A stretch of DNA of 64,000 bases from Devosia sp. A16 (GTDB lineage Bacteria; Pseudomonadota; Alphaproteobacteria; Rhizobiales; Devosiaceae): the NCBI RefSeq assembly GCF_001402915.1, contig NZ_CP012945.1, positions 434,001 through 498,000 of the forward strand. Direction: 5' to 3'. Below are positions 24,082 to 25,361 of the stretch, piece after piece; positions within the stretch are counted from its first letter, which is position 1; the number at the start of each line of letters is the position of its first letter. The notes below the pieces were generated by a model. It was not told the DNA's origin. It saw nothing but the letters and a program-made list of their open reading frames with translations, and searched no databases. The position numbers and the translations under genes were made by a program.

Positions 24082-24212
24082 CAGTCGCTCGTCGCTTTGC
24101 TCCAAGCGCGCTACGCTTCGCTGCGCGTACCCCTCATCCGCCCTTCGGGCACCCTCAAGGGGAGAAGGCGATTGAACCGAGAGCTCTCAGTCGGGTGCCT
24201 TCTCCCCTTGAG
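24082..24212. repeat. Family B palindrome copy 4, left half (interrupted by IS110 element)
   Basis: The left arm CAGTCGCTCGTCGC...GCTCCAAGCGCGC...CCCCTCATCCG reappears inverted at 25383-25442, on the other side of the insertion sequence. The hairpin CTTCTCCCCTTGAG at 24199-24212 is cut by the insertion; its partner GGAGAAGG is at 25362-25369. Confidence 0.8.
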
Positions 24213-24227
24213 CAACCGTGTTTGAAG

Positions 24228-25166
24228 TCAAGCTGGGCTTGGGATCCAAGGTGCGTCGTTTGCGAGGATGGCGTTTGCGGTCGTGAGCAGCTTTCGCATG
24301 GCGGCGACGATGGCCAGCTTTGCCGGTTTGCCTTGGCTGCGGAGCCTTTGATAGAAGGTTTTGATGGGTGGGTTGGCGCGGATGGCTGAGATTGTGGCCA
24401 TGTAGAGGGCGCAGCGCACCGACAATCGACCGCCCGCGATATGAGCTTGGCCTCGCATCTGGCCGCTGTCGTGCACGAAGGGCGCCACCCCCGCCAGAGC
24501 TGCTGCCTGCTTGTTACCGATGCTGCCCAACTCGGGCATCTCGGCGATGAGTACGGCTGCCGTGACCCGGCCGATGCCGGGAATGGAGGCCAGCAGTTCG
24601 GCCCGGCGGTGCAGGCCGGCATGCTGTGCGATGTGCTCGGTGATCTGCTTATCGATGGCGGCGATCTGAGTACTCAGGAAGTCGATATGGGCCTTGATGC
24701 TGGCCTTGATCGTCTGGCCCTCGGGGTGCTCGCTGCGCTGCTTCTCCATGGCCAGCATGTCCACCATCTGCCGACGCCGACGTACCAGGTCGGTCAGCTC
24801 CAGGGCATAGGGATCGTGCGGATCGGGCTGTGGCTGCATGAGGCGAGCGAAGCGCAGGATGGCCTGCGCGTCAATCGCATCGGTCTTGGCCATCTGCCCG
24901 TCGGCACGGGCCAGATCCCTCACCCGGCGGGGGTTGACCTTGCTCAGGGCAATGCCGTGTTCAGCCAGTTCGCGAGCCATCAGTCGGGTATAGCTGCCAG
25001 TGGCTTCACACACCACGTGCGGCCGCCTCAGCGTCCCGAGCCGCACGATCAGGCGGCGCACCCCTGCCTGAGTATTGGAAACACGAAGCACCGCGGTCTC
25101 GGTTATGGCCAGGTCCAGGTGCTGCTTGGATACGTCGACGCTGACGTAGTCGGGGGAAGCGATCAT
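24228..25166 (-). CDS. IS110-family transposase (RNA-guided DEDD recombinase)
   Basis: A 312-residue recombinase from the ATG at 25166. The N-terminal RuvC-like DEDD domain shows Asp11 (VSVDVSK), Glu54 (CEATGSYT), Asp96 and Asp99 (KTDAIDA). The C-terminal Tnp domain includes the helix-hairpin-helix SIPGIGRVTAAVL and Ser234 in HDSGQMRG, the candidate catalytic serine. The spacing from Glu to the two Asp and on to Ser closely follows IS621 (E60, D102, D105, S241). A TTG nine codons upstream would overlap the donor guide and is less likely. The coding sequence is uninterrupted. Confidence 0.93.
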   Translation of the reverse strand: MIASPDYVSVDVSKQHLDLAITETAVLRVSNTQAGVRRLIVRLGTLRRPHVVCEATGSYTRLMARELAEHGIALSKVNPRRVRDLARADGQMAKTDAIDAQAILRFARLMQPQPDPHDPYALELTDLVRRRRQMVDMLAMEKQRSEHPEGQTIKASIKAHIDFLSTQIAAIDKQITEHIAQHAGLHRRAELLASIPGIGRVTAAVLIAEMPELGSIGNKQAAALAGVAPFVHDSGQMRGQAHIAGGRLSVRCALYMATISAIRANPPIKTFYQRLRSQGKPAKLAIVAAMRKLLTTANAILANDAPWIPSPA

Positions 25167-25176
25167 GATGCTCTGC

Positions 25177-25343
25177 CTTGTATGCGGGCCCAAAGCCCAA
25201 CCAACCGTTCGAGATCGTCACGAAGGGCCGGAGGCGTACGCTCAAGGACGAGCTCGAACGCTCAGGGGAGACACACGCCCCCCGACCACAGGCCCCGGAA
25301 AAACACCAGAACCTGCAGGGTCAGATCTGATCACTATCGACCC
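25177..25343 (-). ncRNA. Predicted IS110 bridge RNA
   Basis: The transcript would run from the left end toward the transposase start. It opens with a hairpin GGGTC/GACCC (25339-25343 with 25318-25322). A stem GGGGGCGT/ACGCCTCC (25275-25282 with 25230-25237) encloses an internal loop with TCTCCCCT (25264-25271) and CCTTGAG (25241-25247), matching the REP target. A second loop has ACGGTTG (25202-25208), identical to the element's right-end terminus, and CATACAAG (25177-25184), the reverse complement of core plus left-end terminus. The order target guides then donor guides matches IS621. RNA ends are approximate. Confidence 0.8.
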
Positions 25344-25361
25344 ACAAACGGAACATACAAG

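Follow-up and report, generated by a model that had tools for sequence, protein, structure and literature searches.

An IS110-group insertion sequence in Devosia sp. A16 whose left end encodes a predicted bridge RNA with guides readable against its own ends and targets

Does the non-coding left end of an IS110 insertion sequence in Devosia sp. A16 hold the guides of a bridge RNA, and do these guides follow both the element's own ends and the sites into which it inserts? The locus lies in a window of 64,000 nucleotides (the whole stretch of DNA that was analysed), and an earlier note on it had described two donor guides and proposed a new natural RNA-guided recombinase. The element is almost certainly a complete IS110-group insertion sequence whose left end codes for a bridge RNA that has one loop for binding the target and another for the donor. 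Judged by sequence, an IS110-group RNA-guided recombinase like IS621, with readable guides, is what the locus appears to hold, but the implied novelty is not supported: bridge RNAs were published in 2024, and the text passages of PMC11208160 give them as predicted in 85.7% of IS110-group ISfinder elements. Because the system has been known since then, the result carries little surprise.

The ends of the element could be fixed independently of the guides, because its five copies in the genome (98-100% identical) diverge outside CTTGTATG...ACGGTTG-CT and because an empty site exists (Table 1). At the latter, in the sister genome G003 (L133) and between the same neighbours, CCACCTTCTCC-CT-CAAGGGGAGAAGGC reproduces both flanks of the window copy around a single CT; insertion was therefore precise, with CT as the core and, in this one copy tested, no target duplication beyond it. 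The orthologous intergenic region was read in seven relatives of the genus, of which only G003 has a clean empty site, another (L130) has a related but different repeat, and five have no alignable site. As is typical of the IS110 group, a long non-coding left end (195 bases before the ATG) stands against a short right end, with 8 or so bases and the core after the stop region (24227-24211). By analogy with IS621, the first 30-40 bases or so of the left end are probably promoter rather than RNA. Two of the five copies are altered: L004 has serine in place of the glycine after S234 (DSGQ to DSSQ), adjoining the catalytic serine, and L005 has a one-base insertion that changes its C-terminus.

The recombinase gene of the window copy is intact. 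Its product scores above cut-off for Pfam PF01548 and PF02371 (a DEDD RuvC-like N-terminal domain and a Tnp domain with the catalytic serine), NCBIfam calls it an IS110 RNA-guided transposase, and the solved structures that match best are ISCro4 and IS621 (E about 4e-35), with all five catalytic residues aligned. The five IS621 catalytic residues are present in every one of the five copies, and the earlier identification as an IS110 element is borne out.

Table 1. Features of the window element and insertion targets of its five copies (positions within the window)
Feature	Positions	Strand	Basis
Whole IS110 element, 1151 bp including CT at both ends	24211-25361	-	five copies with divergent flanks; empty site in L133
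Right core CT	24211-24212	-	copy comparison and empty site
Left donor sequence ACGGTTG at right end, directly before CT	24213-24219	-	sequence and copy comparison
IS110 recombinase, 312 aa, D11 E54 D96 D99 S234	24228-25166	-	Pfam, NCBIfam, structure alignment
Left end, 195 bases, encodes predicted bridge RNA	25167-25361	-	sequence reading, comparison of elements, folding
Donor-loop closing stem, 3' arm GAG	25171-25173	-	comparison across elements
Handshake base G (complement of C at target position 7)	25176-25176	-	comparison across elements
Right donor guide CATACAAG	25177-25184	-	sequence, shuffles, pairing models
Donor-loop apical hairpin GGGC/GCCC	25186-25198	-	folding and comparison
Left donor guide ACGGTTG	25202-25208	-	sequence and shuffles
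Donor-loop closing stem, 5' arm CTC	25211-25213	-	comparison across elements
Target-loop closing stem, 3' arm	25226-25240	-	folding
Handshake base C (complement of G at donor position 7)	25240-25240	-	20-element comparison
Right target guide CCTTGAG, reverse complement of CTCAAGG	25241-25247	-	copies, shuffles, 20-element test
Target-loop apical hairpin GAGC/GCTC	25250-25263	-	folding
Left target guide TCTCCCCT	25264-25271	-	copies, shuffles, 20-element test
Target-loop closing stem, 5' arm (pairs with 25240-25226)	25272-25287	-	loop fold with guides kept unpaired; outer stem persists without constraint
Core and right donor sequence CTTGTATG at left end	25354-25361	-	sequence and copy comparison
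Left core CT	25360-25361	-	copy comparison and empty site
Target of window copy (L001), CTTCTCC-CT-CAAGGGG			
Target of L002 and L004, TTCTCCC-CT-CAGGGGA			
Target of L003, CTCTCCC-CT-CAGGGGA			
Target of L005, CCCTCCC-CT-CAAGGGG			

Both donor matches described earlier are real, with coordinates and strand correct. ACGGTTG at 25208-25202 equals the last seven right-end bases before CT (24219-24213), and CATACAAG at 25184-25177 is the reverse complement of CTTGTATG, that is, CT plus the first six left-end bases at 25361-25354. In 20,000 dinucleotide shuffles of the L001 left end minus its first 30 bases, the exact 7-mer arose 282 times, the exact 8-mer five times and both in order never, so that a chance origin of the ordered pair is indeed unlikely. 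Across 12 elements the left donor guide was exact in 11, and the summed score was 160 against a permutation mean of 145.7 (sd 3.0; reached in 0/20,000). Four B-family elements ranked only 3rd or 4th because the test required a contiguous right guide, and the scorer set some B-family and I40 guides off register. The RNA segments ACGGTTG, ACAGATG, ACAGTCG, ACAGTTG and ACGGATA each match the same letters at the right end, the exception being I40 with one difference. Right ends were observed in several copies for A (the window element), E71, C, B, D and J111; those of single-copy elements were located by the ACNGNNG-core motif, which makes their donor match partly circular.

The target guides TCTCCCCT and CCTTGAG, which were absent from the earlier note, lie between the donor guides and the left tip. 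All five copies carry the same guides and are flanked by CT-centred palindromic repeats, which the target guides match. The left guide is fitted best by L002-L004, which require a single U-G wobble on the right side, whereas in L001 and L005 the fit to the right guide is exact and that to the left guide weaker. Taken alone, the target of the window copy is a weak match (139 of 3000 shuffles as good, against 9 of 3000 for L002). The uninterrupted palindrome CTCCCCTCARGGGGAG has five exact and 28 one-mismatch matches in G000:C1, the contig of the window's own genome (17 forward and 16 reverse, seven palindromic sites being counted twice), and its reversed control has none; many free targets are therefore left.

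How far do such matches hold in other elements? Protein searches were positive in 20 of 61 relatives with a threshold of E 1e-3 and, at E 1e-40, in 16 of 136 family genomes; a genome-contig scan gave one relative (L040), and a plasmid collection search gave 2,727 records, all below 60% identity. The nearest relative, E71, is 75% identical, belongs to another genus of the family and has at least 10 full copies, nine of which were used; the next, G5, is 66% identical and of the same genus. Two further IS110 types, each having guides of its own, also readable, and a separate target, occur in the window's own genome: B in three copies (L041-L043; G000:C1 2039478, 2590935 and 3804759) and C in four (L044-L047; G000:C1 1070929, 2897771, 3202057 and 4930306). 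The candidates numbered 75 copies or loci, made up of 69 stretches, L040 and the window genome's own five copies; 66 copies, which fall into 20 elements, entered the tests. Excluded were L065, L068, L069, L070, L072, L111, L126 and L128, for unresolved ends or a broken or cut gene, and L101, a further E71 copy with one extra T at its left junction. One copy was scored per element, the window element being represented by L002 in the target and donor permutation tests and for the handshake base after the right target guide, and by L001 in the tests of the donor stem, of the handshake base after the right donor guide and of the bulge.

When every RNA was scored against every target, with ties counted as first, the own target came first in all 12 elements of the first set and in 19 of the full 20; the exception, K94, placed its own target second, behind that of its near-copy K115. 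The 20-element sum was 288.0, compared with a permutation mean of 235.6 (sd 4.3, maximum 257.5), and was reached in 0/20,000; since the elements are related (four B-like, three D-like, two K, two N), these permutations overstate independence and are not a true probability. The match is not merely shared composition, because element C (TGACCCT left, GGGAGAG right) and G5 (CCTCATC left, ATCTCAG right) match quite different targets. The handshake base that follows the right donor guide is complementary to target position 7 throughout, in 20 of 20 elements (12 G-C, 5 C-G, 1 T-A, 2 A-T), with all four target bases represented, a permutation mean of 8.7 and 20/20 reached in 0/100,000; this position is described, and its covariation already reported, in the text passages of Hiraizumi et al. 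(PMC11208158). Its counterpart after the right target guide forms a Watson-Crick pair with donor position 7 in 17 of 20 (15 C-G, 2 T-A), the rest being one T-G and two mismatched as scored. Among these related elements, then, donor guides follow the element ends and target guides follow the targets. This covariation and the identity of the protein support what the earlier reading had claimed, namely IS621-type left and right donor guides upstream of the recombinase.

Could protein contacts instead recognise ends and target, the internal matches being relics of inverted or direct repeats such as transposase-binding sites? Such relics might well be as short as these matches (7-8 bases), and one guide does repeat the left end in inverted orientation, but the internal segments change with the ends and with unrelated targets across the 20 elements, the handshake base keeps step with target position 7 in every one of them, and only the RNA strand has stems on either side of the segments. 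Given the guide and target covariation, the 20-element target test and the handshake and donor-stem tests, I reject protein-only recognition and consider it very improbable.

Two observations from the wider set concern the sites themselves. In element M97 (L112-L116, genome G097) the recombinase's stop codon TGA lies outside the element, within the target immediately to the right of the core (CT-TGACCC), in 5/5 copies; the right target guide of M97 specifies the sequence adjoining CT, and the guide therefore selects a site that supplies the stop. A CC core in place of CT, with RNA guides matching CC, is found in L049-L060, L103-L106, L127, L067 and L071.

The predicted RNA would carry TCTCCCCT and CCTTGAG in its target-binding loop and ACGGTTG and CATACAAG in its donor-binding loop. 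The target loop folds with a closing stem that is long and an apical stem of four pairs, and the outer stem is kept without guide constraint in the nine elements folded. The donor-loop closing pairs are CTC/GAG, CCT/AGG or CCC/GGG, changing in step: 59 of 60 cells over 20 elements are paired, with C-G/U-A exchanges, against 15-36 for slid partners, and 59 was reached in 0/2000 partner shuffles. The earlier note would have counted as a refutation a fold that keeps its guide segments out of internal loops, and, taken literally, the unconstrained lowest-energy fold of the window RNA gives such an outcome for the left donor guide. Minimum-energy folds of the window RNA have no donor-loop closing stem and pair both left guides elsewhere, the left donor guide with upstream bases; the mean unpaired probability over four transcript ends is 0.16-0.22 for the left donor guide and 0.06-0.13 for the left target guide. 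The closing stem is also lost in unconstrained donor-loop folds of E71, G5 and C. The single-sequence fold of the window RNA is evidence against the donor loop; I give it little weight because the closing stem is paired in nearly all cells across the 20 elements. Rfam gave no match at either threshold. No convincing sigma-70 promoter was found across the joined ends of the window element (349 of 500 shuffles as good); for K94 and D67 the corresponding counts are 2/500 and 8/500. In the window, the right donor guide, the handshake base and the donor-loop 3' arm occupy the place of a ribosome-binding site (25184-25160), 10 bases before the ATG, and guide function and translation start may be mutually exclusive.

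A structured 5' leader that regulates translation is reported for ISPpu9 (PMC8450116), and the left end might likewise be mainly such a leader for the recombinase, its guide function lost in this lineage. The donor-loop 3' arm does sit just before the start codon, and, folded by itself, the RNA is stable, with a z of -3.38 when the whole left end is taken, though of only -1.95 for the likely transcript. However, the guides still match the donor exactly, and also the genomic targets of copies which must have moved recently, being 98-100% identical to one another; moreover, regulation and guiding do not exclude each other. I regard loss of the guide function as even less probable than recognition by protein alone. 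Least probable of all are chance matches in G+C-rich DNA, which single targets as weak as that of the window copy might suggest, but which I reject on the donor shuffles, the 20-element target permutations (neither matched in 20,000 trials) and the handshake and stem tests.

With the bridge RNA as the preferred reading, one detail differs from the published form. Contiguous pairing of the right donor guide is 7/7 in A, E71, G5 and C, whereas among the 20 elements one extruded base is best in 11 and two in five, in a comparison that gave the bulge models three positions to choose from and the contiguous model one. Measured from hairpin to core, the strand has 9, 10 or 11 bases, a length that tracks bulge size in 19 of 20 elements, the exception being N154 (length 11, best with one bulge). 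The window element thus lacks the discontiguous right donor guide of IS621, while other members examined show one- or two-base bulges. In a tree of 19 rows, from which D67 was dropped because its reading broke off at the outset and in which D71 is short, element C falls with the one-bulge pair N154/N152, and the bulge-free form may therefore have arisen or persisted more than once. I lean, if only slightly, towards the view that bridge RNAs of the IS110 group have three donor-guide forms, of 9, 10 and 11 bases, with a surplus of 0, 1 or 2 extruded from the RNA-DNA duplex, that the bulge-free form is that of the window element, of E71 and G5 as its nearest relatives, and of element C, and that the mechanism can do without the two bases flipped out in IS621. 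The text passages of PMC11208160 and PMC11208158 yielded no statement of the length rule; their figures and supplements, outside that scope, may already show it. A contiguous right donor guide without IS621's two-base bulge, together with a loop length that keeps step with bulge size, is a possible small novelty.

In other respects the likeness to IS621 of Escherichia coli, as described in the passages of Durrant et al. 2024 (PMC11208160) and Hiraizumi et al. 2024 (PMC11208158), is close. Both elements have a left-end RNA before the gene with the target loop preceding the donor loop, left guides that are top-like and right guides that are reverse complementary, a CT core, a REP-type palindromic target, a conserved G before the left donor guide, handshake bases, and the DEDD and serine residues. 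The guides and the target differ. In IS621, according to these passages, nine RNA bases lie on seven DNA bases with two flipped out and the donor-loop strand has 11 bases, whereas the window element has eight contiguous guide bases and a strand of 9; its right target guide has 7 bases against 4, and guides longer than that of IS621 are already reported in PMC11208160. By extension from IS621, transcription of the RNA, a circle, protein binding, serine chemistry and handshake strand exchange would be expected here too. ISCro4 (PDB 9t56, E 3.8e-35), the best sequence match among solved structures, resembles the element in its protein. With the IS1111 group and its seekRNA (passages of PMC11187229) the element shares a DEDD transposase family with a guide RNA, but in that group the RNA region is usually found on the downstream side of the gene with the strand order reversed, whereas here it lies upstream, as in the IS110 type. 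Nor does the element have the long subterminal inverted repeats of that group: when it was scanned for repeats together with its flanks, no inverted pair linking the two subterminal ends came up.

What this locus offers is a well-resolved natural case: three IS110 types share one genome, their guides and targets all different and all readable, and there is an empty site as well as a sister element from another genus. Independent data here confirm the rules already published for guides and handshake bases. Should the right donor guide truly be free of a bulge, donor sequences could be chosen by simpler rules.
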